From assembly GCF_001687105.1 (NCBI RefSeq), contig NZ_CP014599.1:186001-250000 (forward strand): 64,000 bases of DNA, written 5' to 3'. Made by a program: the position numbers and the translations under genes. Below are positions 8,209 through 25,854 of this stretch, in pieces. The notes under the pieces are model-generated. The model did no database searches. It saw only the letters and a list, made by a program, of their open reading frames with translations, and was not told the DNA's origin. This DNA is from Salipiger sp. CCB-MM3 (GTDB lineage: Bacteria; Pseudomonadota; Alphaproteobacteria; Rhodobacterales; Rhodobacteraceae). Every line of letters begins with the position of its first letter. Position 1 is the first letter of the stretch.

Positions 8209-9102
8209 TCAATGCGCTCGCCTTGGGGCGGTGACCGCCAGCATGTGTTCGACGAATTTCCGCGCGATCAGGGTCTGCGGTTTCAGCGGGTTCTGCAGCA
8301 AATAGATCGGCACCGAGAGTTCCTCGGCCAAGGGGCGGATGACCGCGCCCGCCGCCTCGAAGAGCTTTGCGGATTCCTCGTCGACGATGCCGATGCCATG
8401 GCCGTCCGCCGCCATCCGGCACAGCATCGCGCCATGCGCCACATCCACCTGACTGCGGATGCTGTAGCCCGCCATCAGCATCGCCGCTTCGAACTTCTTG
8501 CGGATCTCATCCGCCGCGCTCAGCGACAGCAGGCGTTCCTCGTGCAAATGGTCCAGCCGGATGTGCTTTTCGGCGCAAAGCCTGTGGCCGCGCGGCAGAA
8601 TGCAGACCGACTGCAGATCGAAGAGCCGGGTCTTTTCGACCATCTTGTCCTCGCTGCGCGCCTGCGACACGCCGATATCAAGCTCGCCGCGCGCCACCAG
8701 TTGCACCGTCTCGGGGGAACTGCGCGAGCGGAAAGACAGCGAAAGATCGGGGTATTCGTGCAGGAAGTCGCACATGGTCTCGGGCAGCCATGCGGTCGAA
8801 AGCGCCGGGATACAGCTGATCTCGAGCCGCGCGTGTTCGAGCCGCACAAGGCTTTGGGCAAAGCTCTCCAGATGGCCGAAACTTTCCGTCAGCCGCGCCG
8901 CTTCAAGGTAGAACGAGCGGCCCTCGTCGGTGGGTTGCAGCCCTTTGGCGCCGCGCAGGAACAGGCGCACACCCAGCTCTGTCTCCAGCAGTTTCAAGGA
9001 CTTGCTGACGGCGGGTTGCGAGAGATCCAGCCGTTCTGCCGCCGCCGTCACCGAGCCCGCCTCAAGCGCGGTGACGAAGATTTCGCACTGTCTGTAATTC
9101 AT
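8209..9102 (-). CDS. LysR family transcriptional regulator
   Basis: 297 aa. The N-terminal winged helix starts immediately (MNYRQCEIFVTALEAGS) with HTH AAERLDLSQPAVSKSLKLLE; the effector domain follows with CILPRGHRLC and GHGIGIVDEESA. I prefer the ATG at 9102 since LysR proteins normally begin within a few residues of this motif; an in-frame ATG at 9132 adds ten residues. It is divergent from the importer operon at 9306 and is the obvious candidate regulator of that transporter/monooxygenase set. The 203-bp gap contains AT-rich sequence but no palindrome strong enough to list. Confidence 0.9.
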   Translation of the reverse strand: MNYRQCEIFVTALEAGSVTAAAERLDLSQPAVSKSLKLLETELGVRLFLRGAKGLQPTDEGRSFYLEAARLTESFGHLESFAQSLVRLEHARLEISCIPALSTAWLPETMCDFLHEYPDLSLSFRSRSSPETVQLVARGELDIGVSQARSEDKMVEKTRLFDLQSVCILPRGHRLCAEKHIRLDHLHEERLLSLSAADEIRKKFEAAMLMAGYSIRSQVDVAHGAMLCRMAADGHGIGIVDEESAKLFEAAGAVIRPLAEELSVPIYLLQNPLKPQTLIARKFVEHMLAVTAPRRAH

Positions 9103-9305
9103 GCCAAAGCCATAACTCAAAGATATATACATGCCCCAAACATAATTTGACAGAAAAGATAACGCTTGGGCAAGCTGAGGTTACTCCATGGCCGGAGGGG
9201 GCCGCAGAACGCTCCCCGCCAGTTTCCGGAATCGCTGATTTTCCGACTTAACCCCGTCGCTTAGCCGCTTCGGGGAACAGAAACCTACAGCCAACAGGGA
9301 CTGAC

Positions 9306-10871
9306 ATGACACGTATCCTCCCCTCTCTGCTCTCCCGCTCGGGTCTGCGCTCGGTGACCGCCTCGCTGCTGATGGCCACCGCGCTGCCGCTCGCGGCTCT
9401 GGCCGCGCCCGAAGGCGAGCTGCGCATCGCCGTGGGCGCTGACGCCACCACCTTCCATCCGCATGTGAACTCGCTGCCGGTGGGCAATGCGGTCGACGGG
9501 CTGGTCTTTCAGCAGCTGTTCCGCATCGACGGTGACAACAAGGTGGTTCCGGCGCTGGCCAAGGAGTGGGACTGGTCCGAAGACGGCATGACCTTCACCG
9601 TGACCTTCGAGACCGGCCATAAGTTCAGCAACGGCAAGCCGCTCGACGCTGAAGCCGTCGCCGCCTCGTTCAACCAGTTGCTCGACCCCGACAGCGGCTC
9701 GATCTTCGCCGGGCTTTATTCCTCGCTGGGCGAAGCCGAAGCGCAGGGCGAAGACACGGTGGTCTTTCACATGGCCGAAAAGAACGGTCACGTGCTGATG
9801 CTTCTGGCCAATACCGCCGCCAGCATCATCGACACCGAGGCCAATGCCGAGATGGGCGCCGAATACGGGTTCTACCCGGTCGGCTCGGGCCCCTACATGG
9901 TGGATGAGTTCATCGGCGGCGAGCGGTTTAGCCTTGTGCCGAACCCCGACTACGAGGGCCCGCGCCCGGCGACGCTGGAAAAGATCACCTTCATGGCGGT
10001 CCCCGAGGACGGCTCGCGCATGGCGCTGCTGGAAACCGGGGAAGTGGACATCGTCGACCGCGTTCCGGCGGAATCCATCGACACGATCAACGCGCTCGAC
10101 AATGCCGAGGTGATCCTGCCCGACAGCATGTTCTCGATCTCCATGGAAATGGTGCTGAACGGCCCGCTCGAAGACAAGCGGGTGCGCGAGGCGCTGAACA
10201 TCTCGCTCGACCGCGATGGCATGGTGCAGGGCATTCTCGGCGGCCTTGGCACACCCTCCGAAGGGCAGGTCGGTCCGGGCACCGAGGACGCGCTGCGCGT
10301 GACCTTCGAGCCCAAGCCCTATGACGTCGAACGCGCCAAGGCGCTGCTCGAAGAGGCGGGCTATGGACCGGGCAACAAGCTCGAGCTGACGGTGAACTGC
10401 CCCAACGGGCGTTACATCAAGGACGCGCAGGTCTGTCAGGCGCTGGTCGGCCAGTGGCAGGCGATCGGCATCGACGCGCAGGCCCGCGTTCTCGACCTGC
10501 CAAGCTGGTCCGCCGCGCACCGCGTGCCGCTGGAAGAGCGCACCTATGACATGTCGATGATCGGCCGCGCCACGGCGGGGATCGACTTCACCCTCTACCG
10601 CCTGTTCCACACCGGCGTCAGCGCCAACACCACCGGCTTCAGCGACGAGCGCGTCGACAGCCTGCTGGCCGAAGGCCGCGCGACCACGGACATCGACGAG
10701 CAGAAAGAGATCTACGCCGAAGTGCAAAAGATCATCTGGGACGAAATGCCCTTTGTCTTCCTGTGGTACCAGAAGCAGGCGATCGGCATCTCGGACAAGG
10801 TCGAAGGCTTCACCATCCGGCCTGACGAGACCATGCTGTTCGACGACGTCCACGTCTCGGTCGACGGCTGA
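9306..10871 (+). CDS. peptide/nickel-type ABC transporter substrate-binding protein (family 5)
   Basis: 521 aa with a Sec signal peptide to about residue 34. The family-5 order is canonical: LRIAVGADATTFHPH, then LAKEWDWSEDGMTFTVTF, then LNISLDRDGMVQGI, then AKALLEEAGYGPGNKLELTV, and a C-terminal lobe ending LFDDVHVSVDG. It is the first gene of an operon with two permease segments, two ATPases and an LLM monooxygenase. By analogy with the EDTA importer linked to EDTA monooxygenase in Chelativorans, the cargo may be a non-peptide organic nitrogen or chelator compound; this is inference. Confidence 0.92.
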   Translation: MTRILPSLLSRSGLRSVTASLLMATALPLAALAAPEGELRIAVGADATTFHPHVNSLPVGNAVDGLVFQQLFRIDGDNKVVPALAKEWDWSEDGMTFTVTFETGHKFSNGKPLDAEAVAASFNQLLDPDSGSIFAGLYSSLGEAEAQGEDTVVFHMAEKNGHVLMLLANTAASIIDTEANAEMGAEYGFYPVGSGPYMVDEFIGGERFSLVPNPDYEGPRPATLEKITFMAVPEDGSRMALLETGEVDIVDRVPAESIDTINALDNAEVILPDSMFSISMEMVLNGPLEDKRVREALNISLDRDGMVQGILGGLGTPSEGQVGPGTEDALRVTFEPKPYDVERAKALLEEAGYGPGNKLELTVNCPNGRYIKDAQVCQALVGQWQAIGIDAQARVLDLPSWSAAHRVPLEERTYDMSMIGRATAGIDFTLYRLFHTGVSANTTGFSDERVDSLLAEGRATTDIDEQKEIYAEVQKIIWDEMPFVFLWYQKQAIGISDKVEGFTIRPDETMLFDDVHVSVDG

Positions 10872-10883
10872 TCGGGGACGGCC

Positions 10884-11807
10884 ATGTTTGTTCTCAAGAG
10901 ACTCCTCGTCGCGGTCCCGACCCTCTTCGCTGTCAGCCTGCTGGCCTTCTGGTTCGTGGCCCTGATCCCCGGAGACCCGGCCGCGCAGCTTGCGGGCAAC
11001 ATGGCCACCGATGAGGAGATCGCCGATATCCGGCATCACCTCGGCCTCGACCGCCCGCCGTTCGAGCGCTACGCGCTGTTCCTGCGCGGCGTGGTCGATC
11101 CCGAGGTGGCGACCTCCTATCGCACCAGTCGCCCAGTGGTTCAGGAAATCACCGAGCGGCTGCCCAAGACCTTGATCATCGCCGTCGGCGGGCTGGTTAT
11201 CGGCCTTGCCTTCGGGGTGGTCACCGGGGTGATTTGCGCGCTGCGGCAGGGCGGGTGGTTCGACGCCACCGTCACCGTGCTGACGCTCGCGGGCATCTCG
11301 ATGCCGATCTACTGGCTGGGGCTGTTGTGCATCTGGCTGTTCGCCGTGACGCTGGGCTGGCTGCCAGCAGCCGGAGCGGCGACACCCGCGCATTATGTGC
11401 TGCCGGTGCTGGTGGTGGCGACACGGCCCGCCGCGCTTTTCAGCCGCCTCGTCACTGCCAACCTGCTGGAGGTGATGGGCAAGGATTACCTCGACACCGC
11501 CCGCTCCAAGGGGCTGGCCGAACGCACGGTGATCCTGCGCCACGCGCTGCGCAACTCGCTGGTGGCAGCGGTCAGCGTCGCCGGGGTGCAATTCGGCGGC
11601 ATGCTGGGCGGCTCGGTGGTGACCGAGACGGTGTTCGGCGTGCCCGGACTGGGGCGGCTTCTGGTCAGCGCGGTCGGCAGTTCCGACTACCCGGTGATCC
11701 AATACTGCGTGCTGCTCTTTGCGGTGTTCTTCGTCCTCATCAACCTCGCGACCGACCTGCTCGGCCAGTGGCTCGATCCGCGGACCCGCGATTACGCGGC
11801 CGCCTGA
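10884..11807 (+). CDS. ABC transporter permease (DppB-like)
   Basis: 307 aa inner-membrane permease, about six helices. The first helix is followed by the usual periplasmic loop (PGDPAAQLAGNMATDEEI), and the EAA loop is ARSKGLAERTVILRHALRNS. It lies 12 bp after the binding-protein gene and 12 bp before the fused permease/ATPase gene, clearly co-transcribed. It pairs with the permease half of the next gene. Confidence 0.92.
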   Translation: MFVLKRLLVAVPTLFAVSLLAFWFVALIPGDPAAQLAGNMATDEEIADIRHHLGLDRPPFERYALFLRGVVDPEVATSYRTSRPVVQEITERLPKTLIIAVGGLVIGLAFGVVTGVICALRQGGWFDATVTVLTLAGISMPIYWLGLLCIWLFAVTLGWLPAAGAATPAHYVLPVLVVATRPAALFSRLVTANLLEVMGKDYLDTARSKGLAERTVILRHALRNSLVAAVSVAGVQFGGMLGGSVVTETVFGVPGLGRLLVSAVGSSDYPVIQYCVLLFAVFFVLINLATDLLGQWLDPRTRDYAAA

Positions 11808-11819
11808 CAGGCAGACCTC

Positions 11820-13832
11820 ATGACAATGACATCCACCACAGACGATATCCCCGGCGGCGCCGAGACCGGCGCACGGCAAGGGCTGCTGCGGCAGACTCTG
11901 CTGCATCCAAGGCTCAAGACCCTGCGCCGCATTGCCAGTTCGCCCAAGGGCGCCATCGGCCTCGCGCTGGTGACGGTGCTGACCTTCCTCGCCTTCTTCG
12001 GTCCCTGGCTGGCGCCGCTCGATCCCTACAAACAGGATTTCATGGCGACGCTGCAGCCGCCCTCGGCGGCGCATTGGTTCGGCACCGATCAGCTGGGCCG
12101 CGACGTGTTCAGCCGCATCCTCGTCGGCGCGCGCTCGTCGCTGGGCATCGGCGTCGGCGGCGTGGCGGTGGCCTTCGTCATCGGCGTGCCGCTGGGACTG
12201 GCCGCAGCCTATGTGCGCGGCACCTTCGATCAGCTGCTGATGCGCGGCGTCGACATCATGCTCTCGTTCCCCGACATCGTCTTTGCCCTCGCCGTCGTGG
12301 CGATCCTCGGGCCGAGCACGTGGAACGTGATCCTCGCGGTGGGCATCGTGTCGATCCCGGTGTTCATCCGCACCACCCGCGCGGTGGCGATGAGCACCCT
12401 GTCGGAACCCTTCGTCGAAGGCAGTGTCTCGCTCGGCTGCTCGCCGATGCGGGTGATGGCGCGGCACGTGCTGCCGAACATGGGCGGCATCCTCGTGACC
12501 CTGTGCAGCCTGCTGTTCGCCTCGACGCTGCTCAACGCCTCGGGCCTCAGCTTTCTCGGCCTCGGCACCCAGCCGCCGGAACCCGAATGGGGCACCATGC
12601 TGGGCGAGAGCCGCTCTTACATTCGCAGCCATCCCTATATGGCGACCTTCCCGGGCCTCTTCCTTGCGCTCTCGGCGCTGGGGTTCAACCTGCTGGGCGA
12701 GGAGTTGCGCAACATCTACGACCCCACCGCCGCCAAGCGCCGCAAGGGGCAGGGGATGCTGGCGCGGCTGATCTCCGGTGGCAAGGCGCTGCCCGCCGCC
12801 CCGCGTGAGACCGCCGCCGAGGCCAAGGCGCGGCTCGGGGTGGCCAGCGATGCCGCCGCGCTAGGGCGCGATCTAGAGATTTCCTATCTCACCGAGCGCG
12901 GCCAGCTTCCGGCGGTGCGCGGTGTCGATTTCGCGCTGCGCCGCGGGCGCACTCTGGCGGTGGTCGGCGAGTCCGGCTCGGGCAAGAGCACGCTGCTGCG
13001 CGCCGTCGGCACCCTGCTGCCGCGCGGGCAGGCGGTGGTCTCGGGCGGTGAGCTGGAGATCGCGGGCAAATCCGCCGCGCATCTGTCGGGCAAAGAGGTG
13101 CAGGACCTGCGTCGCCGCTATATCGGCATGGTGTTTCAGGATGCCGCCAGCGCGCTCAACCCGGTGATGACCATCGGCGCGCAGCTGGCCGAGGCGCTGA
13201 CCTCCGGCACCAGCCTCAGCGCCGCAGAGGTGCGCGCCCGTTCCATCGACTTGCTCAAGGCGGTGCAGATCGCCGATCCCGAAAGCCGCCTCTCGGCCTA
13301 TCCGCACCAGTTCTCGGGCGGGATGAAACAGCGCATCGTGATCGCCATCGCGCTGGCGCAGGAGCCCGAGATCCTGCTGGCCGACGAGCCCACGTCGGCG
13401 CTCGACGTGACCATCCAGCAGCAGATCCTCTCGCTGCTGCGCAAGATGCAGAAAGAGCGCGACATGGCGATGATGCTGGTCACCCACGATCTGGGGCTGG
13501 TGGCGCGCTATGCCGACGACGTGGCGGTGATCTACGCCGGGCGCATCGTCGAGGTCGGGCCGGTGGACGAGGTGTTCCGCAACGCCCGCCACCCCTACAC
13601 CCGCGCCCTGCGCAACTCGACGCCGAAGCTGCGCCACGATGGCTCGACCCGGCTGCTTCCGGCGATTTCGGGCGAGCCGCCGATGCTGGGCCGTCTGCCC
13701 GAGGGCTGCAGCTTTGCGCCGCGCTGCGCGCGGGCCAAGGGCCGGGCGCCCTGCATGACCATTGCGCCGGATCTGCAGAGCTGCGGCGCGGCCTCGGTGG
13801 CCTGTCACTTCGCGCAAGAAGAGGAGGTCTGA
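11820..13832 (+). CDS. ABC transporter permease-ATPase fusion (DppC-DppD)
   Basis: 670 aa single frame. Residues 1-300 are a DppC-like permease ([14 protein letters not shown] signature, EAA loop [20 protein letters not shown]). After a linker to about residue 345, a DppD-like ATPase follows: Walker [10 protein letters not shown] at 383-391, signature FSGGMKQR at 498-505, Walker B ILLADEP at 518-524, and a C-terminal cysteine patch ([16 protein letters not shown]) typical of oligopeptide-type ATPases. The fusion is known in several bacterial lineages. The following ATPase gene begins 1 bp after the stop, so the complex has two different NBDs, one tethered. Confidence 0.92.
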
Positions 13833-13833
13833 G

Positions 13834-14931
13834 ATGCCCAAGGACATGCAGCAAGAGGTCCAATCCGGCGCGGATGTGGTGTTGGACGTGCGCAACCTCA
13901 GCGTCGATTTCCCGGTGAACAAATCCTTCTTCCGCACCGGCGCCACCAAGGTGGTGCGCGCGGTGCAGAACGTCAGCTTCTCGGTGCCGCGCGGCGGCTG
14001 CTACGCCATCGTCGGGGAATCCGGCTCGGGCAAGAGCACGCTGGCGCGGGCAATCGTCGGGCTGGTTAAGATGACGGCGGGTGAGGTGACCCTTGGCGGG
14101 CAGCAGCTGTCCGGCCTCACCCCGCGCGAGCGGCGGCAGCTGCGGCGGCGGGTGCAACTGGTGCTGCAGGATCCGCGCGCCTCGATCGACCCGCGGATGC
14201 GCGTCTATGACGTGCTGCGCGAGGCGCTGGTGGTGCATGGCATCAAGGGCAGCAAGGACGATCAGCGCGCCCGTATCGAGCAGGTGATCCGGCAGGTGGG
14301 GCTGAGCGTGGCGCACCTCGGGCGCTTTGCCAATGAACTGTCGGGCGGTCAGCGCCAGCGCGTCGCCATTGCCCGCGCGATCATCCTCGAGCCCGAGATC
14401 CTCGTGCTCGACGAGCCGGTGAGCGCGCTCGACGTGTCGATTCAGGCGCAGATCATCAACCTGCTGGTGGAACTGCAAGAGCGGCTCGGGCTGACCTATG
14501 TGATCATCACCCATGATCTCGCGCTGGTCAGCCATTTCGCCGACAGCACCGGGGTGATGTACCTCGGGCGCTTCGTCGAGCAGGGACCGGCCCGGCAGAT
14601 CTGCGACAGCCCGCGCCACCCCTATTCCGAGAGCCTGCTGTCGGTGGTGGCGGGCGAGGACCCGGAGGTGGAGCGCAATCGCGAGGTGGTGCTGCTCGAG
14701 GGCAATATCCCCAGCCCGCTCGATCTGCCGACCGGTTGTGCGTTTCACACCCGCTGCCCGCATGCGCGCGTGGTCGCCGCGGGGATCGATCCCGCATCGC
14801 GCCAAGAGGTGGCAGGCCACAGTGTGCCGCGCCTCTGCGTCGAGGCAACGCCGCGTGCCGAAACCGGCCCCGCGGGGTGCCTGTGCCATTACCCGCTTGC
14901 CGGCGCGCAGCCGGACCCGACTGACAATTGA
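13834..14931 (+). CDS. oligopeptide-type ABC transporter ATP-binding protein (DppF-like)
   Basis: 365 aa. Walker [10 protein letters not shown], signature LSGGQRQR, Walker B ILVLDEP, H-loop ITHDLALV, and a C-terminal oligopeptide-transporter region with the cysteine patch CAFHTRCPHARV. I chose the ATG at 13834, 1 bp after the preceding stop and behind GAGGAGG; the open frame back to 13762 overlaps the fusion gene. The N-terminal INPVNKSFF-like segment (DFPVNKSFFRTG) is usual for DppF. It partners the ATPase domain of the preceding fusion protein. Confidence 0.92.
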   Translation: MPKDMQQEVQSGADVVLDVRNLSVDFPVNKSFFRTGATKVVRAVQNVSFSVPRGGCYAIVGESGSGKSTLARAIVGLVKMTAGEVTLGGQQLSGLTPRERRQLRRRVQLVLQDPRASIDPRMRVYDVLREALVVHGIKGSKDDQRARIEQVIRQVGLSVAHLGRFANELSGGQRQRVAIARAIILEPEILVLDEPVSALDVSIQAQIINLLVELQERLGLTYVIITHDLALVSHFADSTGVMYLGRFVEQGPARQICDSPRHPYSESLLSVVAGEDPEVERNREVVLLEGNIPSPLDLPTGCAFHTRCPHARVVAAGIDPASRQEVAGHSVPRLCVEATPRAETGPAGCLCHYPLAGAQPDPTDN

Positions 14932-14951
14932 TCAAAACACCCCAGAAGATA

Positions 14952-14969
14952 TCCCGGCGCAGTCCGGGA
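14952..14969 (+). other. small hairpin just upstream of a ribosome-binding site
   Basis: TCCCGG, loop CGCAGT, CCGGGA: a perfect 6-bp stem ending directly against the AAGGAG of the monooxygenase gene at 14982. It may influence initiation or mRNA stability at the transporter/enzyme boundary. Short enough to be chance. Confidence 0.25.
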
Positions 14970-14981
14970 AAGGAGACCAAG

Positions 14982-16367
14982 ATGCCCACGACCCAACGCC
15001 GCATGAAGATCGGCATTAACATGGTGCAGAACGGCGGCCATAACTCGGGCTGGCGCCACCCCGATGCCAACGCCGGTATCGCCAATGATTTCAAAGGCTA
15101 CGCCAAGATCATCAAGCAGGCCGAGGCGCAGAAGATCGACTTCATGTTCCTTGCCGACGGCGCCGCCGTGCGCATCCCGCACAAGGATGCTGACGAACTG
15201 AGCCGCCACGGCCATATCGACCGCTTCGAGCCGATCACCCTGCTCGCCGCCATGTCGGCGGTGACCGAGAGCATCGGCCTGATCTGCACCGCCTCGACCA
15301 CCTATAACGAGCCCTATGCGCTGGCCCGCAAATTCGCCTCGCTGGACCATATCTCGGACGGGCGCGCGGGTTGGAACGTGGTGACCGGCTGGAGCGAAGA
15401 AGAGGCGATGAACTTTGGCCGCGACACGCTCATGGAGCATTCCGAGCGCTATGAGCGCGCCAATGAATTCTTCGATGTAGTCACCGGCCTGTGGAACAGC
15501 TGGGACGATGACGCCTTCGTGCGCGACAAGGACGAGGGCCGCTATTTCCGCCCCGAGGGGATGCATCTGCTCAACCACAAGGGCAAACACTATCAGGTGC
15601 GCGGCCCGCTGAACCTCGAGCGTTCGCCGCAGGGCTATCCGGTGATCGCGCAGGCGGGCGGCTCGGGTCCGGGGCGCGAGCTGGGCGCGCGCATCGCCGA
15701 CATCATCTACACCGGCCAGAAGGACAAGGAGATCGCCAAGGAGTTCTACGCCGACATGAAGGCGCGGGTCGCCGCGGCGGGTCGCGATCCGGCGCAGGTG
15801 ATGATCATGCCGGGCATCATGCCGATCATCGGCGCCACCGAGGAAGAGGCGCAGGCCAAGCTCGACGAGTTGAAGGCGCTGGTCCACCCCGAGGTCGGCC
15901 TGCAGCTGATCTCGAAGATGTTCGGCGATCTCAGCGCCTATGATCCCGACGAGTTGGTGCCGCTGCCGCTGCCGGAGTCGAACGGTGTCAAAAGCGCCAT
16001 CGAGCAATGGGAGCGCCGCCTGCGCGAGACCCCGATGACCATCCGTCAGGTCTATGAGGAGATCTCGATCTCTTCGGGCCACAACGTCTGCTGCGGCACG
16101 GTCGAGCAGATCGCCGACGTGATGCAGGATTGGTTCGAAGATGGCGCCTGCGACGGCTGGAACTTGATGGCGCCCTATATGCCCGGCGGCGCAGAGGATT
16201 TCATCAACCTGCTGGTGCCGGAACTGCGTCGGCGCGGACTGGCGCAGAGCGAATATGAGGGCGGCACGCTGCGCGCCCGGCTCGGGCTGGAGGCCAAGCC
16301 CAACCCGCTGGCGGGACGTGTGTCGGAGAGTTCGGAATCCGAAGAAGCGATCGCCGTCTCGCACTGA
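14982..16367 (+). CDS. LLM class flavin-dependent monooxygenase (NtaA/SnaA/DszA group)
   Basis: 461 aa. Group motifs include SGWRHPDAN, FMFLADGAAV, ICTASTTYNEPYALARKFAS, GRAGWNVVTGW and ERYERANEFFDVVTGLWNSW. The ATG at 14982 follows AAGGAG; the frame extends upstream to 14928 but that start lacks a ribosome site. It is the last gene of the importer operon begun at 9306 and is closed by a strong terminator. It is a clear paralogue of the convergent LLM at 16548 (shared RHPD, TAYNEPY-type and GRAGWNVV blocks). Requires FMNH2 from an unlinked reductase. Expected chemistry is oxygenolytic C-N or C-S cleavage of the imported compound; substrate unknown. Confidence 0.9.
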   Translation: MPTTQRRMKIGINMVQNGGHNSGWRHPDANAGIANDFKGYAKIIKQAEAQKIDFMFLADGAAVRIPHKDADELSRHGHIDRFEPITLLAAMSAVTESIGLICTASTTYNEPYALARKFASLDHISDGRAGWNVVTGWSEEEAMNFGRDTLMEHSERYERANEFFDVVTGLWNSWDDDAFVRDKDEGRYFRPEGMHLLNHKGKHYQVRGPLNLERSPQGYPVIAQAGGSGPGRELGARIADIIYTGQKDKEIAKEFYADMKARVAAAGRDPAQVMIMPGIMPIIGATEEEAQAKLDELKALVHPEVGLQLISKMFGDLSAYDPDELVPLPLPESNGVKSAIEQWERRLRETPMTIRQVYEEISISSGHNVCCGTVEQIADVMQDWFEDGACDGWNLMAPYMPGGAEDFINLLVPELRRRGLAQSEYEGGTLRARLGLEAKPNPLAGRVSESSESEEAIAVSH

Positions 16368-16420
16368 GCGCGGCAGAACTTTGATGGTCGCTTTGGGGGC
16401 TGCTCCCGTCCCCGGCGCCG

Positions 16421-16449
16421 AGAGGGCGGGCCTTCGGGTCCGCTCTTTT
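16421..16449 (+). terminator. intrinsic terminator for the 9306-16367 operon
   Basis: Arms AGAGGGCGGGCC (16421-16432) and GGTCCGCTCTTT pair over 12 positions, allowing several G-U pairs, with a stable TTCG tetraloop and a TTTT run. It lies 54 bp after the monooxygenase stop on the plus strand. Confidence 0.75.
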
Positions 16450-16491
16450 CGTCTTGGCCGGCTGCCGCCGCGCGAGAAATTGTCAGCTGAC

Positions 16492-16522
16492 AAAAAAGCC
16501 CCCCGGCACAGGACCGGGAGGC
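16492..16522 (-). terminator. intrinsic terminator for the 23783-16548 operon
   Basis: Read on the minus strand: GCCTCCCGG, 7-nt loop, CCGGGGGGC (one mismatch), then TTTTTT. It lies 26 bp beyond the stop of the LLM gene at 16548 and back to back with the plus-strand terminator at 16421, so the two convergent operons are well insulated. Confidence 0.8.
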
Positions 16523-16547
16523 AGTTGGGAAGAAATTTTCGAGGGTG

Positions 16548-17915
16548 TCAGGCCATTGTGGTCTCGCGCTCACGGGCGGCGGTGTAGCGGTTCACATGCG
16601 CTGGCAGCCCGAGGTTCTCGCGCAGGGTGCGGCCTTCGTATTCGGTGCGGAACAGCCCGCGCCGCTGCAGTTCGGGCACCAGCAGATCGGCCACATCCGC
16701 AGCGCCGCCGGGCAGGTGCGGCACCGTCAGGTTGAAGCCGTCGCAGGCGCCCTTGTGGAACCAGTCTTCCATGACGTCGGCGATGTCGGCGGCGGTGCCG
16801 ATGTAATTGCTCGATGCCTGTCCGGCCTGCTCGAGATAGAGATCGCGGATCGTCTTGCCCTCTTGCCGGGCGCTGGCGATCAGCCGGTCGGCCCAGCCGC
16901 TGAGGCTTTCATTGTCCCCCGAGGGTTTGAAATCGGCGGGGATCGGCTCGTCCAGCGGCAGCCCCGAGAGATCGCCGAATGTGTCGGCAAGGAACGACAG
17001 GCCAACCACCGGCTCGATCAGATCCTGCATCATTTCGAATTTCTCCTGCGCCTCCTCGCGGCTCTCGCCGATGTAGGTGCGGAAGCCGGGCATCACCCGC
17101 AGCGCATCGGCGGGGCGTCCGAATTTGGCCAGCCGCTCGCGCATGTCGGCGTAATAGTCCAGCGCCTCTTCGACGCTGCGCGCGGCGGTATAGATCACCT
17201 CGGCGTGTTTGGCGCCGATGTCGCGCCCGGCGGGGGAATTGCCCGCCTGCACCACGATCGGACGGCCCTGCTCCGAGGGGCGCGCGTTCAGCGGCCCGCG
17301 CACCCGGAAATGTTTTCCCTCGTGGTTCAGCCGGTGCATCTTCGCCTCGTCAAAGAACAGCCCCGAGGCCTTGTCGAGCGGGAAGGCGTCTTCTTCCCAG
17401 CTGTCCCAGAGGCCGGTGACAACCTCGACGAACTCGGCGGCGCGCTCATAGCGTTCGGTGTAGTCGCGCACCTGTTCGAGGCCGAAGTTCTTGGCCTCTT
17501 CGTTCGACCACGAGGCGACCACGTTCCAGCCCGCGCGGCCATGGCTCATCAGGTCGAGCCCGGCAAAGCGGCGGGCGAGGTTGTAGGGCTCGTTATAGGC
17601 GGTGGAGGCCGTGGTCACGAGGCCCAGATGCGTGGTCACCGCCGAGATCGAGGCCAGCAGCACCGTGGGTTCGATGTCGGTGATGTAATGGCCGAGGCGG
17701 GCCAGTGAGCCCTTGGGGGTGTCCTTGGCGCGCACGCCCGCGCCGTCGGCAAAGAAGATCATGTCGATCTTGCCGCGTTCGGCGTGTTTGGCGACGGTGT
17801 GGAAATGCTCGATCTCGCTGGCGCCATTGGCCGGCACATCGGGGTGGCGCCATGCAGAGGGGTGATAGCCGACGCCACGCATCGACAGGCCGAGCCGCAT
17901 CTTTTTGTCAGTCAT
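16548..17915 (-). CDS. LLM class flavin-dependent monooxygenase (NtaA/SnaA/DszA group)
   Basis: 455 aa, FMNH2-dependent monooxygenase of the nitrilotriacetate/EDTA/DszA group. Features: SAWRHPDVP near residue 20, MIFFADGAGV, TTASTAYNEPYNLARRF, GRAGWNVVASW, ERYERAAEFVEVVTGLWDSW and the C-terminal HLPGGAADVADLLVPELQRR. Last gene of the minus-strand importer operon (23783 to 16548), separated from the unusual binding-protein gene by 99 bp that hold a strong hairpin. Paralogue of the 14982 protein, with which it converges. No flavin reductase gene is adjacent. Confidence 0.9.
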   Translation of the reverse strand: MTDKKMRLGLSMRGVGYHPSAWRHPDVPANGASEIEHFHTVAKHAERGKIDMIFFADGAGVRAKDTPKGSLARLGHYITDIEPTVLLASISAVTTHLGLVTTASTAYNEPYNLARRFAGLDLMSHGRAGWNVVASWSNEEAKNFGLEQVRDYTERYERAAEFVEVVTGLWDSWEEDAFPLDKASGLFFDEAKMHRLNHEGKHFRVRGPLNARPSEQGRPIVVQAGNSPAGRDIGAKHAEVIYTAARSVEEALDYYADMRERLAKFGRPADALRVMPGFRTYIGESREEAQEKFEMMQDLIEPVVGLSFLADTFGDLSGLPLDEPIPADFKPSGDNESLSGWADRLIASARQEGKTIRDLYLEQAGQASSNYIGTAADIADVMEDWFHKGACDGFNLTVPHLPGGAADVADLLVPELQRRGLFRTEYEGRTLRENLGLPAHVNRYTAARERETTMA

Positions 17916-18014: not shown

Positions 18015-19754
18015 TCAGTAGACGTAGCCAGCCTTGGTCATGAAATCGCGCGCGATCTCGAGGTCGTACTCGATGGGTTTGAGCAATTCCTTGGCGTATT
18101 CCGGCGCGGTGAAGGGCATAGGCACCGTGCCCGGCGCGCCAAAGCCGCTGGCGATCTCCTGCACGATCTGCTCGCGCGGCATGGCGTGGCTGAAGGCCTG
18201 ACGCACATAGGCCGCAGCCTCGGCGGCGCGCGACGGGTCCTCGCGGCCAAGCGGCGTGTCGACGCCGGTGCCAAAGACCGGGTGCTGCAGGTTGTAGCAG
18301 ACGTGCTGCCACTTGTAGCTGTCGTAGGTCTGCACCTTGCCCCACGAGGGGTCGATCGTGTCGACCAGCGAGCCGATGTCATACATCGGGTCATGCGCGT
18401 CGATCTCTCCGGATTTCAGCGCCGACAGCACCGCGTCCGAGCCTTGGATGTTGACCACGTAGAAGGTCTCGACGTTGCCCGGCGTTTCTTGCCAGTAGTC
18501 GGCGTTCTTGGCGTAGACGAAGGCCTTGCGCATCTGGTCCTGACCCTGACAGACCCACGGCCCGGTGCCGACGCCGCCTTTGGCGGTGTAGGTCGAGCCG
18601 TCGGACAGGGTGACCTCATAGCTGCCATTCCACGTGTTGAACGGATGCGCGCGCAGATCGCCCGGCGCGATGCCTTCCAGAACGTGCTTGGGCATCACCT
18701 GCATGGCGTTCATCACCCAATGTTCGAACTGGATGGTGAAGGCGGGCAGATCGATGGTGACCTCGTATTTGCCGGTGGCCTTGAAGGCGTCGGGTGAGCC
18801 GAAGATCTCGACGAAGGGCGCGTTGAACGCCGAGGCATAAGCCGGGTCCATGATCATCTTCCAGGTGAAGATCACATCCTCGGCGGTGAACTCCTCGCCG
18901 CTGTGCCATTTCACGCCTTCGCGCAGCGAGATGACCCATTGCTTGCCGTCCTCCGACATGGTGTGGCCGGTGGCCAGCGCCGGAGCGATCTCTTTGGTTT
19001 CCCAGTCTTTATACTCGTAAAGGCGGTTGAACACCGGCCCGAAGACATTCGAGTCCGAATAGCCGCCGGTATACATCGGGGTGAGGTTCTGCGGCGGTTG
19101 CCACGAGGCGAAGGCGGCGGTGGCACCGCCCTCGGCCCCTTCGATCGTCCAGTTGTGCGGGTCGGGGAAGAACACCGGGTTGAAGGTGGTGCCGGTAAAG
19201 CCCGAGAGCTTGGGGTTCGTGGCGATCACATCCTCGGGGTAGAACAGGATGGTCATCGGCTGGATGTCATACCAGCGCTTTTCGAAGCGGTGGATTGCCT
19301 CCATCCGCGGGCCCTCTTCGCGGGCGGCGGCGTAATCCTTGAGCGAGGCATCAATCTCTTCGTCATTGACGTAATAGTAGTTCTGCCCGTTCGGCGGGAA
19401 GGCCGTGGACGAGAAGAGGTTGTTCGGCATCGGGGTGATCGAGTTGTAGTAATAGCGCTCGAGATAGGCGTCCCAGCCGCCCTCGGCGTGGCTTTTGCCC
19501 TCGCCATTGGTGCGCCGCGGGGTGATCACCGACCACGGCACATAGCTCGATTGCACGTCGATCCCCAGCTTCGAGATCTGCTGCGCCGCCAGCGTGCCCC
19601 AGATCATCCGGGCGGGCTGGTTGTTGGGGATCATCATATACATCTTGAAGAAGGGTGCCGCGGCGCGGCCCATGCCCGGTGCCGACCCGGCCAGTGCCGC
19701 CGCGGCGGCGCCGGTGGTCTTCAGGAAGTTTCTGCGTGTCTGGTTTGCTTGCAT
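18015..19754 (-). CDS. circularly permuted family-5 ABC substrate-binding protein (Tat-exported)
   Basis: 579 aa in one uninterrupted frame. Residues 1-33 are a Tat signal (TRRNFLK, then an alanine-rich helix). Residues 35-205 match the canonical C-terminal lobe of DppA/OppA proteins (PNNQPARMIWGTLAAQQISK, KLGIDVQ, then the final strand before HNWTIEG). Residues 212-579 match the canonical N-terminal part: LAT-TMSEDGKQWVISLREGVKW, FTAEDVIFTWK, GTGPW, VRQAFSHAMPREQIVQEI, and it ends at IARDFMTKAGYVY, exactly where other family members continue into the lobe found here at the front. It is therefore a natural circular permutation. Unusually it is fifth in its operon, after both permeases and both ATPases. 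Cargo unknown. Confidence 0.88.
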   Translation of the reverse strand: MQANQTRRNFLKTTGAAAAALAGSAPGMGRAAAPFFKMYMMIPNNQPARMIWGTLAAQQISKLGIDVQSSYVPWSVITPRRTNGEGKSHAEGGWDAYLERYYYNSITPMPNNLFSSTAFPPNGQNYYYVNDEEIDASLKDYAAAREEGPRMEAIHRFEKRWYDIQPMTILFYPEDVIATNPKLSGFTGTTFNPVFFPDPHNWTIEGAEGGATAAFASWQPPQNLTPMYTGGYSDSNVFGPVFNRLYEYKDWETKEIAPALATGHTMSEDGKQWVISLREGVKWHSGEEFTAEDVIFTWKMIMDPAYASAFNAPFVEIFGSPDAFKATGKYEVTIDLPAFTIQFEHWVMNAMQVMPKHVLEGIAPGDLRAHPFNTWNGSYEVTLSDGSTYTAKGGVGTGPWVCQGQDQMRKAFVYAKNADYWQETPGNVETFYVVNIQGSDAVLSALKSGEIDAHDPMYDIGSLVDTIDPSWGKVQTYDSYKWQHVCYNLQHPVFGTGVDTPLGREDPSRAAEAAAYVRQAFSHAMPREQIVQEIASGFGAPGTVPMPFTAPEYAKELLKPIEYDLEIARDFMTKAGYVY

Positions 19755-19792: not shown

Positions 19793-20836
19793 TTAACTGT
19801 CGGGGCTGAGCGGTTCGGCCGGGGCCGGCTCGTTCAGCGGGTGGTGGCAGGCGAGCGCGTGGCCGCGCTGGGTCTTCATCGGCGGCTCATGCGCGGCGCA
19901 GACCGCACTGGCGCGCGGGCAGCGGGTGTGGAACCGGCAGGCGGCGGGCATGTTCATCGCGCTGGGGATCTCGCCGCGCAGCGTGTTGCGCGCGGCGGGC
20001 CGGTCGGGATCGGGCACCGGGATCGCGCTTAGCAGGGCGCGGGTGTAGGGATGGCGCGGCGCCTCGAAGAGCGTGTCCACATCGGCGATCTCGACGATCT
20101 TTCCCAGATACATCACCGCGACGCGGGTGCTGAGAAACCGCACCGAGCTGAGGTCATGCGAGATGAAGAGATAGGTCAGCCCCAGTTCCGCCTGCAGCCG
20201 CGCCAGCAGGTTGAGGATCTGCGCCCGCACCGAGACGTCGAGCGAGGACACCGGCTCGTCGAGGATCAGCAGTTCGGGGTCTACGGCGAGCGCGCGGGCG
20301 ATGCCGACGCGCTGGCGCTGACCGCCCGAGAACTCATGCGGGTAGCGGTCGGCGTGATGCGGCTCCAGCCCCACCAGTTCCAGCAGTTCCAGCACCCGCG
20401 CGCGCCATGCGGCGGGCGGCAGCAGCGCATGCACCCGCAGCGGCTCGGATAGCGTTTGCGCGATGGTCCAGCGCGGGTTGAGCGACATATAGGGATCCTG
20501 AAAGACGTATTGCACGCGGCGGCGCATGGCCAGTTCGGCCTTGCGGTCGTCGCCGCCCAGCGTCGCCAGCAGGTCTTGCCCGCCGAGCAGCACCTCGCCG
20601 CCGCTGGCACCGATCAGATGCAGGATCGAGCGCGCAGTGGTCGACTTGCCGCAGCCGGATTCGCCCACGAGGCCAAGGGTCTGCCCGCGCGCCACGGAAA
20701 AGGAGATCTCGTCGACGGCGCGGATCACCCCGGTCTGGCGGCTGCGAAAGAGGCCGCGTTTGGTCACCGGGTAGAGCTTCTGCAACCCGCGCACGGTGAG
20801 CAGGTCGGGATCGGGGATGGCGAAGGGGGCGGTCAT
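19793..20836 (-). CDS. oligopeptide-type ABC transporter ATP-binding protein (DppF-like)
   Basis: 347 aa. Walker A GESGCGKST, Q-loop FQDPYMSLNPRW, signature FSGGQRQR, Walker B LLILDEP, H-loop FISHDLSSV, and C-terminal cysteine patch CRFHTRCPRASAVC. Its ATG overlaps the stop of the preceding ATPase (ATGA), and it ends 38 bp before the binding-protein gene. It forms the heterodimeric motor with the ATPase at 20833. Confidence 0.93.
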   Translation of the reverse strand: MTAPFAIPDPDLLTVRGLQKLYPVTKRGLFRSRQTGVIRAVDEISFSVARGQTLGLVGESGCGKSTTARSILHLIGASGGEVLLGGQDLLATLGGDDRKAELAMRRRVQYVFQDPYMSLNPRWTIAQTLSEPLRVHALLPPAAWRARVLELLELVGLEPHHADRYPHEFSGGQRQRVGIARALAVDPELLILDEPVSSLDVSVRAQILNLLARLQAELGLTYLFISHDLSSVRFLSTRVAVMYLGKIVEIADVDTLFEAPRHPYTRALLSAIPVPDPDRPAARNTLRGEIPSAMNMPAACRFHTRCPRASAVCAAHEPPMKTQRGHALACHHPLNEPAPAEPLSPDS

Positions 20837-21897
20837 GCGGCGTCCTCCTCGATCAGCGAGCCGCGGCGCAGGCAGCTGACGGCATGGCCGGGCCCGCTGG
20901 CGGTCATTTTCGGCAGGTGGCGGCGGCAGTCCTCCTGCGCCTCGCCGCAGCGCGGATTGAACTGGCAGCCGCTGGGCCGCTCCGCCGGGTTCGGGGGCTT
21001 GCCGCCGATCGCCGGCAGGCTCTGCGCGCCCTGCTCATAGCGCTGGTCGATGCGCGGCGTGCTGTCGAGCAGCGCGCGGGTGTAGGGGTGCTGAGGGTCG
21101 CGAAAGACCGTGCGCGCCGCGCCGCTCTCGCAGATGCGGCCCGAGTACATCACCGAGATCCGGTCGGCCATGCGCGCCACCACCCCCATGTCGTGGGTGA
21201 CAAGCAGGATCGACGTGTGAAAGCGCTCTTTGATCTCATCCAGAAGGTCGAGGATCTGCGCCTGAATGGTCACGTCGAGGTTTGTGGTGGGCTCGTCTGC
21301 AAGGATCAGCGCCGGATCGCAGAGCAATGCGCGGGCGATGCAGACGCGCTGTTTCATGCCGCCGGACAGCTCGTGCGGGAACTGGTTCAGACGGCTGGTG
21401 GCATCGGTGATGCCGACCTGCCGCAGCAGGTAGCCGACGCGCTCGCGCGTCTCGAGCCGGCCCGCCCCGGTGTGCCATGCGTAGATCTCGCCCAGTTGCT
21501 TGCCGATGGTCAGGATCGGGTTGAGCGAATGCGCCGGGTTCTGGAACACCATGGCCATGCGCTTGCCGCGCACGCGGCCCATGGCTTTTGCGGATTTGCG
21601 GGTCAGATCCTCGCCCTCGAAGACCACCTGTCCGCCGGTCACCTGCGCGCCCGCTGGCGGCAGCCCCATCAGCGACAGCGAGGTTACGGATTTGCCCGAG
21701 CCGCTTTCGCCGACAAGGCAGAGGGTTTCCTGCCGCCCGACGGCGAGACCGACACCCATCACCGCGGGCACCGCGCTTGCGCCCTTGCCGAAGCTGACGC
21801 TCAGCCCGCGCACCTCGAGCAGCGGGGCGGCACCGGGTGCGGGATCACCGGAGGGATCACGGGACAGGGGATCATTTGACGCGGGGGTTGAAAGCAT
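20833..21897 (-). CDS. oligopeptide-type ABC transporter ATP-binding protein (DppD-like)
   Basis: About 354 aa. Walker [10 protein letters not shown]-loop [10 protein letters not shown], signature LSGGMKQR, Walker B LILADEP, H-loop [10 protein letters not shown]-terminal patch [15 protein letters not shown] prefer the ATG at 21897, which overlaps the upstream permease stop by 26 bp; an ATG at 21909 and a TTG at 21930 are alternatives and no start has a convincing ribosome site. Co-transcribed with the permeases upstream. Confidence 0.9.
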
Positions 21898-22816
21898 CGG
21901 ACAGCCCATCTGCAAGAAGGTTGAAACCAAGAACCGTGATGAAGATCGCCGCGCTCGGGGCGATGGAGGCCCAGGGCGAGACCCTGAGGTTCTCGTAGTT
22001 GAAATAGAGAAGCTGGCCCCAGCTGATCGCCTCGGGGTCGCCGAAGCCGAGGAAGCTGACCATCGCCTCCGAAAGGATGGCCGAGCCGATCCCCAGCGCG
22101 ATGATCACCACCAGCGACGGCATGGCGTTGGGCAGGATGTGGCGCATCAGAATGTCGCTGCGGGTGGCGCCGATGCAGCGGGCGGCCTCGACGAACTCCA
22201 TGCTTTTCAGGCGCATGAACTCGGCGCGGGCGATGCGCGCGATGGGCGGCCAGCCGAAGAGGCCAAGCAGCACGACGATTGTGCTGAGGTTGAGATAGGG
22301 GATCTCTTCGAGCGGGGTGCCGACCACGATCACCCCGAAGAGCCGGACCACGGCAAGGATGACCACAAACACCGGCAGCACGAGGAAGAATTCGGTGATG
22401 CGCATCATCACCTCGTCGGCCCAACCGCCGACATAGCCGCTGATGCCGCCGATCAGCAGCCCCAGCACCGAGGCGACCAGCATGGTGCCGAGCCCCACCG
22501 CCAGCGCCGTGGGGGCGCCATAGACCACGCGGGTGAAGACGTCATAGCCCATACGGTCGGTGCCGAAGGGATGCGCGAGGCTGGGGGCGGCGCGCGAGCC
22601 GAAGTTGAGCATCGCCGACTGGTCGTCGGCGGCATAGGGCGCGATCAGCGGCGAGAGGATCGCCACCAGCACCACGAAGCTTACCAGCACGAGACCCAGC
22701 ATGCCGGTACGGTTGCGGCGGAAGCGCGACCAGCCCTGTGCCCACATGCCGCGCGGCATCTCGGGCCGTGCCGCCTTGGGGCTGGCGGCTGGGGTGAGAG
22801 GATCAATCGAGGCCAT
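21872..22816 (-). CDS. ABC transporter permease (DppC-like)
   Basis: About 314 aa, six membrane helices. Family marks are FGTDRMGYDVFTRVVYGA after the first periplasmic loop and the EAA loop EAARCIGATRSDILMRHILP. The ATG at 22816 sits 4 bp after the DppB stop; a TTG ten codons upstream would overlap that gene and is less likely. The C-terminal end ([15 protein letters not shown]) is typical. Confidence 0.9.
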   Translation of the reverse strand: MASIDPLTPAASPKAARPEMPRGMWAQGWSRFRRNRTGMLGLVLVSFVVLVAILSPLIAPYAADDQSAMLNFGSRAAPSLAHPFGTDRMGYDVFTRVVYGAPTALAVGLGTMLVASVLGLLIGGISGYVGGWADEVMMRITEFFLVLPVFVVILAVVRLFGVIVVGTPLEEIPYLNLSTIVVLLGLFGWPPIARIARAEFMRLKSMEFVEAARCIGATRSDILMRHILPNAMPSLVVIIALGIGSAILSEAMVSFLGFGDPEAISWGQLLYFNYENLRVSPWASIAPSAAIFITVLGFNLLADGLSDAFNPRVK

Positions 22817-22820
22817 GGGG

Positions 22821-23783
22821 TCAGTCCAGTCTGATGCGGGGATCAATGAGCACGTAGGCGATGTCGGTGAGCAGCGTGGCCAGCACGAGCATCACCGAGA
22901 TCGCCATGGTGACGCCGAGGATCACCGGGTAATCGAGCTGCTGGATCGCGTTGATGTAGAGGTAGCCGACACCGGGCCAGGTGAAGACGGCCTCGGTCAC
23001 CGGAGCGGTGCCCAGCATCAGCCCGAAGAGGATGGCCAGATAGGTCAGCACCGGGATCAGCGCGTTGCGCAGCGCGTGGCCGTAGATGATGCGCCGCTCG
23101 GGCAGGCCGCTGGCGCGGGCGGCGGTGACGAAGTCATGGCGCAGGATGTCCACGAGGTTCGAGCGCATCAGCAGCGTCAGCGCGGCGGTGTTGAAGAAGG
23201 TCAGCATCGCCACCGGCAGCACCATATGCCACAGCGCGTCGAGCGTCGGGCTGCCCCAGAGCGGCGCGCGCATGGAATAGGCCCCGTAAGAGGGGAAGAT
23301 GCCCAGCCAGTAAGAGAAGATGAGGATCAGCAGGATGCCGACGAAGAAGGCGGGCAGCGACTGGCCGAGCATGGCGCTGGCCATGACCCCGAAGTCGGTC
23401 TTGCTGTACTGGCGCACGGCGGCGGTCACGGCCATCACCGTGGCGATGGCCAGCGCGATGAGGATGCCGGGGACCTGAATCTTCATGGTCTCGGCGCCCC
23501 AGACCGTGATCATCTCCCAGACCGGCTGGTTGTAGATGATCGAGGTGCCGAAATCGCCCTGCAGCAGATTTCCGGCCCAGATCAGGTAGCGGGTCACCGC
23601 CGGCTGATCGAGCCCGTAATAGGCGGTCATCTGGTCGATGGCCTGCTGGCTGATGCCGGGCCGTTCGGCAAGGAGGATCTCGATCGGATTGCCCACGGCG
23701 TTGACCAGCGCAAAGACGATAACGCTGACGCCGATGAGCAAGATCACCGAGAAGATGAGACGGCGAATGATGAACTGGGTGAC
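22821..23783 (-). CDS. ABC transporter permease (DppB-like)
   Basis: About 320 aa. The usual DppB start (TQFIIRRLIFSVILLIGVSV) points to the GTG at 23783, 12 bases after GGGAGAG; the open frame to 23849 begins with TTG and an atypical leader. The EAA loop is ARASGLPERRIIYGHALRNA. It is the first gene of the minus-strand operon DppB-DppC-DppD-DppF-binding protein-LLM, an order that places the binding protein late. Confidence 0.88.
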   Translation of the reverse strand, partial: VTQFIIRRLIFSVILLIGVSVIVFALVNAVGNPIEILLAERPGISQQAIDQMTAYYGLDQPAVTRYLIWAGNLLQGDFGTSIIYNQPVWEMITVWGAETMKIQVPGILIALAIATVMAVTAAVRQYSKTDFGVMASAMLGQSLPAFFVGILLILIFSYWLGIFPSYGAYSMRAPLWGSPTLDALWHMVLPVAMLTFFNTAALTLLMRSNLVDILRHDFVTAARASGLPERRIIYGHALRNALIPVLTYLAILFGLMLGTAPVTEAVFTWPGVGYLYINAIQQLDYPVILGVTMAISVMLVLATLLTDIAYVLIDPRIRLD

Positions 23784-24091
23784 CTGCAAGCCAAGCTCTC
23801 CCGTTGCCGCAAGGCGGGGATCAGCGCGCCTGCAGCCTAATGATTTCAATTGGTTCTGATGGGGTCAGGATGAGATGCCGCAGCCCGTAGGGTCAAATTC
23901 CAAATAATAGGTATGCATCGAACTCAGGTTATGGGGCGGCCTGTGCCGATAACCAAAACCCGTGCGCCCGGCAGCGGATTTGGCGGTCAGGACATCGGCG
24001 CTGGCATTTTGCGAGGCAGGCCCCGCGCGCCTGCGTCGCGGTGGGGCCGGAAATCTGCTATGGTGCCCGTGCTTGGAGGAGGGCCCGCATC
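23784..24091. other. divergent intergenic region
   Basis: 308 bp between the DppB-like gene and the metallo-hydrolase gene. It should hold both promoters. A GGTTAT ... ATAACC inverted repeat with a 16-base spacer lies at 23927-23954, and a GGAGGAGGG ribosome site precedes the 24092 start. No small ORF with coding character and no RNA motif was recognised. Confidence 0.5.
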
Positions 24092-24877
24092 ATGAAGATC
24101 CGGCTGTTGAATGAGAACCTCGTCTCCGACTTGTGTTGGCTGGCCGAATACGGGTTTTCCGCCTGGATCGAATACGAAGGCAGCAAGATCGTCTTTGACA
24201 CGGGCTGGTCCGACGTATGGTGCCGCAACGCCGAAACCGCGCATATCGATCTGGACGCCGCCGACGTCATCGCGCTGTCGCACTTTCACAGTGACCATTC
24301 GCGCGGGCTGCTTTTCCATCCGTTCACCGAAAAGAAGACGCTGGTGCTGCACCCACGGGTCATGACGGCGCTGCTTGATCCCTTCATAGAGCCGCCCGAC
24401 CGCCACCTTCCGCACAGGTATTCCGACATCGAGCGGAAGATCCGTGCGGACTTTCAGATCGTCGAGACGGTCGGGCCCTATGAGATCGCCCCCGGTGCCT
24501 TTTTCCTCGGGCAGATCCCAAGGGTCGTCCCCTTCGAGCGGGGCTATTACTATGAGGACACGATGGAGGACGACACGGCTTTGGCCTTCAGGACCGAGAA
24601 GGGCGCGGTTGTTCTCACCGGCTGTTCGCACAGCGGGATCTGCAACATCTGCACCTATGCGAAATCGGTGACCGGTCAGGATCTATACGCCGTGATCGGT
24701 GGCTTTCATCTGGTCCATCCCGAAAAACCCGCCTTGGATGAAACGATTGCATGGCTCCGCGCCGAAGGCATTCCGCGCCTTTTGCCGGTCCATTGCGTGT
24801 CCTTCGACATTCAGGCGCGTCTGCAAAGCGAGTTCGGCTATGACAGGCCGGGGGCGGGTTCGCTGATCGAGATTTGA
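24092..24877 (+). CDS. metallo-beta-lactamase fold hydrolase (COG1237-like)
   Basis: 261 aa. The metal-binding motif HFHSDH is at about residue 69, followed by the conserved TGCSHSGI, GGFHL and PVHC segments. These mark the subfamily loosely annotated as 7,8-dihydropterin-6-methyl-4-(beta-D-ribofuranosyl)aminobenzene-phosphate synthase-like, whose bacterial functions are mostly unknown. I chose the ATG at 24092 after GGAGGAGGG; an upstream in-frame GTG at 24041 has no such support. It converges with the LysR gene at 24913, 35 bp apart. Confidence 0.85.
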   Translation: MKIRLLNENLVSDLCWLAEYGFSAWIEYEGSKIVFDTGWSDVWCRNAETAHIDLDAADVIALSHFHSDHSRGLLFHPFTEKKTLVLHPRVMTALLDPFIEPPDRHLPHRYSDIERKIRADFQIVETVGPYEIAPGAFFLGQIPRVVPFERGYYYEDTMEDDTALAFRTEKGAVVLTGCSHSGICNICTYAKSVTGQDLYAVIGGFHLVHPEKPALDETIAWLRAEGIPRLLPVHCVSFDIQARLQSEFGYDRPGAGSLIEI

Positions 24878-24912: not shown

Positions 24913-25854
24913 TCAGCGCAGCTCGGCGGCGGTCTTTGTGGTGCTGGCGGGGGGCGGGGCCAGCGCGGGGCCGAGGCTTTCTGCGTGGGCCAGCGCCAGT
25001 TCGACAAAGCGCTGCACCTGACTGGTGCGCGGGCGGTGGCGGGGCAGCAGCAGCCGCACCTCGGAACTGACCGTGGGCGCGAAGGGGCGGCAGACCACAA
25101 GTTCCGAGAAAGCCCCAAGGTACAGAGGGTTGAGCAGCGCCACGCCCAGACCGCGCGCCACCATGGCGCAAATGCTGGGCGCCATCGAGGCTTCGGTGAT
25201 GATGTCGCGCTGCACCCCGGCGCGGGTGAAGAGCTCATCCACTTGAGCGCGCAGATCCGAGGTCGGGGTGAAATTGATGAAACGCTCGCCTTCGAGGTCC
25301 GCCGGACAAAGCGCGGGCCGTTCGGCCAGCCGGTGGCCGCGCGGCATCACGCAGACATAGGGGCGACTGTCGAGCGCGATATGCTCGATCTCGGGATCGT
25401 CGATTGGATGGGACGAGACACCGATGTCGAGGCTGCCGGAAATCAGCATGTCGACGATCTTGACCGTGCTGCGCGCATGCAGCGCCAGTCGCGCGGCGCT
25501 GTTGCTGCTTTGGTATTCCATCACGAGGTCCTGAATGAAGCCGGTCGACAGCGCGGGCATCACCCCGACCGACAGCATCGTGCCCTTCATGTTGCGGATG
25601 TCCGAGGCGGCTGTCTCGATCCGGTCGAGGCCGCGATAGAGCCGGTTGATCTCTTCGAACAAGAGCAGCGCGTCGCCGGTGGGGCGGACCCGGCCGGGGC
25701 TGCGCTCGAACAGGGCGAGCCCGGTGTCATACTCGAGGTTCTGCAGCATCTTGCTGATCGCGGGCTGCGAGACGCAGAGGCGCGAGGCGGCGCGGCTGAC
25801 GGTGCCGGTTTCAATGACGGCCTTGAAGGCCTCGATCTGGCGGACGTTCAACAT
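24913..25854 (-). CDS. LysR family transcriptional regulator
   Basis: 313 aa. N-terminal winged helix MLNVRQIEAFKAVIETGTVS with HTH AASRLCVSQPAISKMLQNLE; effector-binding domain from about residue 92 (LSVGVMPALSTGFIQDLV). It is divergent from the ferric-reductase-like gene at 26201 and convergent with the metallo-hydrolase. Its target is not evident; a short inverted repeat (GAAGA-N5-TCTTC) lies 80 bp upstream. Confidence 0.9.
   Translation of the reverse strand: MLNVRQIEAFKAVIETGTVSRAASRLCVSQPAISKMLQNLEYDTGLALFERSPGRVRPTGDALLLFEEINRLYRGLDRIETAASDIRNMKGTMLSVGVMPALSTGFIQDLVMEYQSSNSAARLALHARSTVKIVDMLISGSLDIGVSSHPIDDPEIEHIALDSRPYVCVMPRGHRLAERPALCPADLEGERFINFTPTSDLRAQVDELFTRAGVQRDIITEASMAPSICAMVARGLGVALLNPLYLGAFSELVVCRPFAPTVSSEVRLLLPRHRPRTSQVQRFVELALAHAESLGPALAPPPASTTKTAAELR

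Follow-up and report, generated by a model that had tools for sequence, protein, structure and literature searches.

A described precedent for natural circular permutation among the binding proteins of ABC importers is TpMglB-2 (Tp0684), presented in the passages of its paper that treat the topic as a circularly permuted Cluster B binding protein of a proposed 'Type Ic / Cluster Bc' (PMC4990184), while for the Cluster C protein EppA the relevant section of its source gives the domain order I, IIa, III, IIb (PMC7312458). Here we describe a gene in a 64,000-nucleotide stretch of Salipiger sp. CCB-MM3 (contig NZ_CP014599.1, positions 186,001 to 250,000; hereafter the window) that lies on the minus strand, reads from 19754 to 18015 and encodes 579 amino acids. 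Its product is very probably a naturally circularly permuted Cluster C (SBP_bac_5, family 5) solute-binding protein (SBP), as indicated by a split Pfam match, by alignment to AppA in pieces and by rotation tests. A sequence-only reading of this DNA had pointed to the 579-codon frame at 18015-19754, naming no strand, and had proposed natural permutation of a family-5 SBP; the frame is present, and the proposal is supported by the swapped Pfam order, by homologues with the same order and by structural alignment. The order of the parts, their conservation, the operon and the single clade are the established parts of this reading.

The Pfam model SBP_bac_5 (PF00496) matches residues 255-577 with 186.2 bits (curated cut-off 32.4) over model positions 1-278 of 368, and a second, upstream stretch at C5:205425-205691 (approximately residues 22-110) matches model positions 276-355 with 21.3 bits (E 3.2e-4), by itself below the family cut-off. 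Over the whole genome this model gave 28 matches in 27 proteins, 26 of which have a single, collinear match; the permuted SBP alone gives two, with model positions 276-355 first in the reading direction and then 1-280. The canonical profile order is absent from the chain as encoded and is restored only by rotation. Two matches in exchanged order are what the sequence-only reading had predicted, and the protein it offered as a normally ordered internal control, a plus-strand family-5 SBP at 9306..10871, indeed gives one collinear PF00496 match over model positions 1-351. Its assignment of residues 212-579 to the canonical N-terminal two-thirds agrees with the longer of the two matches, and its assignment of residues 35-205 to the C-terminal lobe holds in part: the C-terminal part of canonical proteins does align at residues 34-190, but the cut, judged by the EppA domain description (PMC7312458), would lie inside domain III, so that the front piece would be the latter half of that domain together with the C-terminal strands and not the whole lobe. 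Other Pfam rows on this protein at E up to 1 were TAT_signal and a sub-cut-off Tail_spike_N, with no homology to Cluster B sugar-binding proteins among them.

Rotation, in which residues 206-579 are joined ahead of 34-205, turns the SBP_bac_5 match into one stretch over model positions 1-355 and raises it from 186.2 to 198.0 bits, and it likewise raises the NCBIfam scores for DppA (50.4 to 58.0) and GsiB (40.2 to 55.1). When an alignment of the seven full-length permuted members was compared by hhalign with 24 canonical proteins, the encoded order scored 322 (template columns 73-386), and a cut at 212, the top of 17 tried, raised this to 406 (columns 73-530); the canonical set, used here and in the local-HMM scans, was 24 of the 26 of the genome, L060 and L063 having been dropped by a 15-bit filter. 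Against Bacillus subtilis AppA (1xoc), phmmer aligned the pieces in swapped order, with query residues 228-374 on AppA 35-179, 516-577 on 282-344 (a weak piece, i-E 1.7) and 53-186 on 377-502, and in the rotated form AppA 282-502 becomes one stretch. The C-terminal pieces of 17 canonical proteins align on residues 34-204, three of the 20 cut proteins having been left out of alignments A3 and A5 as close to L020.

Read from its N-terminus, the permuted SBP consists of a Tat signal (residues 1-33, 19656..19754), a front part made of the second half of domain III and the closing strands, which are C-terminal in canonical proteins (residues 34-204, 19143..19655), a linker from the old C-terminus to the old N-terminus (residues 205-212, 19119..19142) and the canonical N-terminal two-thirds (residues 213-579, 18018..19118), all on the minus strand. 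The signal contains TRRNFLK and exceeds the cut-offs of both Pfam TAT_signal (23.4 bits, cut-off 22.7) and TIGR01409 (20.4 bits, cut-off 16.7), in agreement with the Tat signal claimed earlier, and an RR pair close to the N-terminus is found in all seven full-length members; from this twin-arginine motif, Tat is the putative export route. Canonical proteins run from ...AKELLKEAGY directly into PDGFDLEI..., and the permuted SBP, as the sequence-only reading had noted, stops at just this point (...MTKAGYVY), restarting after the signal with PFFKMYMM.... Among the seven members, invariant positions number 64 of 171 before the linker, 0 of 8 within it and 158 of 367 after it, and dN/dS against Salipiger marinus is 0.098 before, 0.54 within (8 codons only) and 0.138 after. 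Purifying selection acts on both halves, and the linker is variable. By the EppA domain order (PMC7312458) we infer that the chain opens with the second half of domain III, continues through IIb, the linker, I and IIa, and closes with the first half of III. In this reading the old C-terminus is joined to the old N-terminus through about eight variable residues, and the new ends have opened in a domain III loop that connects the helix ending ...AGY to the strand after it. Remnant tandem copies within the gene were also sought and rejected, with only short, imperfect repeats of 18-27 nt present.

The second of two AlphaFold2 models of the permuted SBP is confident (pLDDT 86.7). The sequence-only reading had suggested a structural comparison, and its order-dependent version confined the in-order match, as predicted, to residues ~201-579, which match the N-terminal part of AppA/DppA/NikZ-type chains; this alignment speaks to that stretch only. 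The same limit applies in all of the best 50 structure entries listed, in which the C-terminal ~150 residues of the chains find no in-order partner in the model. Foldseek TM-scores against AppA 1xoc were 0.46 (query) and 0.53 (target). The permuted chain would be expected to adopt the two-lobed flytrap typical of such proteins.

Six exact peptide words, run against one genome for each of 84,980 species (the figure given by the tool), hit 27 loci, six of them of the permuted family: Salipiger marinus (88% identity), an Acetobacteraceae metagenome-assembled genome (MAG; 69%), Belnapia mucosa (65%), Reyranella soli (64%), an Enhydrobacter MAG (62%) and, as the sixth, Citreicella sp. C3M06, in which the permuted SBP is truncated. 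A further homologue, in Neorhizobium sp. NCHU2750 (55%), came from the plasmid collection. The seven full-length members, that of Salipiger sp. CCB-MM3 included, share an identical order, the RR signal and a C-terminal end ...AGYxY (with one additional residue in Neorhizobium), and they span Rhodobacterales, Acetobacterales and Hyphomicrobiales, the order being assigned for all but the Acetobacteraceae MAG. Placed in a tree among 73 further family-5 rows, they group as a single clade with a long stem (SH-aLRT 100). In Citreicella, permease B has been joined to permease C, and ATPase F to the permuted SBP, by two internal deletions (L011 6123-6606 and 7603-9305), neither of which keeps the reading frame. 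A search by way of the permeases found no unpermuted sister, returning three other systems with ordinary SBPs (top 114.4 bits by the rotated profile), and a phage origin was rejected after the phage collection gave no match at E up to 1e-20.

Several results weigh against a permutation that is both real and functional. Rotation adds little or nothing with Opp4A (103.4 to 103.5 bits) or NikA (74.3 to 75.5), the local-HMM rotation scan peaks near the joint by only ~3% with cuts at 469-514 nearly equal, and the similarity of the front part to canonical C-terminal parts is weak, with a top score of 25.1 bits. Alignment A4, which contained an added row from L035 and was replaced by A5, put none of the 17 canonical C-terminal pieces on residues 34-205. 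The first AlphaFold2 model, built with permuted homologues only, was poor (pLDDT 40) and was excluded from the fold comparison, and the good model is not fully independent because its canonical rows were pre-cut at the proposed boundary. The family is also rare, being found in 3 of 20 genomes of the genus with CCB-MM3 included, and in 1 of 295 family and 1 of 385 class genomes sampled (E up to 1e-60) and 1 of 398 phylum genomes sampled (E up to 1e-25), the sole one each time being CCB-MM3 itself, and one relative, Citreicella sp. C3M06, carries a decayed copy of the operon. The weakness of the C-part similarity when searched alone could be taken to mean that an unrelated N-terminal domain sits ahead of a complete, collinear SBP, an arrangement that the sequence-only reading had itself named as a contrary outcome. 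We reject this and give it almost no credence, as the Pfam stretches are swapped (model positions 276-355 at the front, with the match at the chain's end stopping at 278-280 of 368), the match becomes continuous on rotation, AppA aligns accordingly, and the chains of the 50 entries listed lack an in-order partner for their C-terminal ends; residues 34-190 instead align with the canonical C-terminal part. A misassembly or annotation artefact, which the same reading had located near 19130, is as close to untenable and was rejected because the search for homologues proposed there found the same order, in frame and at 55-88% identity, in six other independently sequenced records; selection on both halves argues the same way. 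That related bacteria keep the rearranged gene in the same operon looks like the mark of a real evolved shape and not of a sequencing mistake.

It is improbable that the permuted protein is real yet no longer serves transport, as a relic or in another role: the sparse distribution and the decay in Citreicella would fit such a history, but dN/dS against S. marinus is ~0.13 and all four transporter domains stand beside the gene in the seven full-length loci. A chimera, in which the front part came from a different family-5 gene and was fused ahead of a C-terminally truncated one, strikes us as unlikely but worth serious consideration. The scores of the two parts are uncorrelated across 67 other family-5 proteins (Spearman -0.10, p 0.40), the N part lies nearest to rows L102 and L042 but the C part to L049, and such an origin is also considered for TpMglB-2 by its authors (PMC4990184). 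Against this, each part forms a single clade in its own tree, and the C-part signal is too weak for placement (at most 25.1 bits, with long-branch warnings), so the disagreement between the two parts is uninformative. These trees, from which four rows were dropped (three long branches and one partial frame at the L096 edge) and to which L102 was added, do not decide between one parent gene and two.

Permeases and ATPases of Dpp/Opp type are encoded ahead of the permuted SBP, in the minus-strand order permease B (OppB/DppB type, 22821..23849; NCBIfam Opp2B, 251.2 bits), permease C (OppC/DppC type, 21872..22846; Opp4C, 257.1 bits), ATPase D (OppD/DppD type, 20833..21930; PRK09473, 314.4 bits) and ATPase F (OppF/DppF type, 19793..20836; PRK11308, 387.7 bits against a cut-off of 408), each match being below its cut-off and each neighbour conserved. 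Directly downstream follows an NtaA/DmoA-family FMN-dependent monooxygenase (16548..17915, minus strand; TIGR03860, 516.5 bits against a cut-off of 279.7) and then, as a possible operon end, a terminator-like hairpin (16498..16522, minus strand) with a 10-pair stem, 8 of the pairs GC, followed by TTTTTTG; the hairpin scan of the region found 8 sites against a shuffle mean of 4.4, making this pattern evidence only, and the same scan gave no sigma-70-type promoter. Two permeases and two ATPase domains accompany the permuted SBP in all seven full-length loci, and the monooxygenase lies 3' of it in the window and in six of the seven other loci (L010, L011, L012, L013, L014 and L038), the contig of L009 ending earlier. 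In Neorhizobium (L038 5197-6879) the two ATPases are one fused gene ahead of the permeases. A metallo-beta-lactamase-like ORF, named by eye (24041-24877), separates permease B from a LysR gene (24913-25854) in the window, whereas in L010 LysR immediately precedes permease B. Next to the permuted-SBP operon the window has another of Dpp/Opp type (8209-17915), which includes a canonical SBP and a further NtaA/DmoA-family monooxygenase, and related pairs of systems stand side by side in the S. marinus, Citreicella and Neorhizobium loci. Two other family-5 SBP genes of the CCB-MM3 genome (L058 and L059; G000:C4:9634-10668 and C4:262040-263074) have equal scores and profile coordinates, as if recently duplicated.

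Since importer and monooxygenase form a conserved operon, uptake followed by oxidation of the imported compound is its likely role. A small substrate would be bound between the lobes of the permuted SBP, which would pass it on to the Dpp/Opp-type importer encoded alongside, and the imported compound may then be oxidised by the flavin monooxygenase encoded next. Judging from the enzyme family alone, our best guess for the ligand is a small nitrogen- or sulfur-containing organic compound of the aminopolycarboxylate or organosulfur type.

We found no permuted Cluster C (family-5) binding protein in the titles and abstract openings listed by searches of open-licence literature, and the passages on the topic in PMC2588589 and PMC12667903 describe none; the one natural circular permutation of a binding protein that these searches brought up, TpMglB-2, belongs to Cluster B. 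It is quite likely that these proteins are the first described lineage of permuted Cluster C SBPs ('Cluster Cc'), in which one old event put the ends into domain III and made that domain discontinuous, and which remained functional alongside a dedicated importer and became sparsely distributed in Alphaproteobacteria within an uptake-and-oxidation operon. Such a case in Cluster C, with its operon conserved, would mean that this three-domain class can accommodate new ends within the C-terminal lobe. Comparing natural and back-permuted versions would make flytrap movement, docking and signal-peptide placement testable, and a natural cut site would become available for sensors built from peptide-type binding proteins. 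A plain label hides the rearrangement, the Neorhizobium homologue being annotated as 'peptide/nickel ABC transporter substrate-binding protein'.

The best sequence and fold matches of the permuted SBP are AppA (1xoc), DppA, NikA, NikZ and OppA, which it also resembles in the Dpp/Opp-type permeases and ATPases of its operon; these SBP_bac_5 proteins differ in that, among the 50 entries listed, they match in order only residues ~201-579. EmoA and NtaA are related enzymes, and the window likewise places an NtaA-family monooxygenase beside an importer. The EppA-EmoA EDTA system of Chelativorans sp. BNC1 is alike, as far as the corresponding section of its source describes it, in combining a Cluster C SBP and importer with oxidation of the substrate by a flavin monooxygenase, whereas EppA itself keeps the ordinary order I-IIa-III-IIb (PMC7312458). 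Like the permuted SBP, TpMglB-2 is an ABC-importer binding protein whose chain is circularly permuted in nature and which belongs to a lineage and is not a singleton, and the passages that describe it report that the two-lobed fold and ligand binding were kept in that protein (PMC4990184). It differs, by the same passages, in that it is a glucose/galactose protein of Cluster B whose permuted strands lie near the C-terminus and whose chain crosses the hinge a fourth time (PMC4990184), whereas the permuted SBP belongs to Cluster C, is cut in domain III and carries its C-terminal segment at the front.
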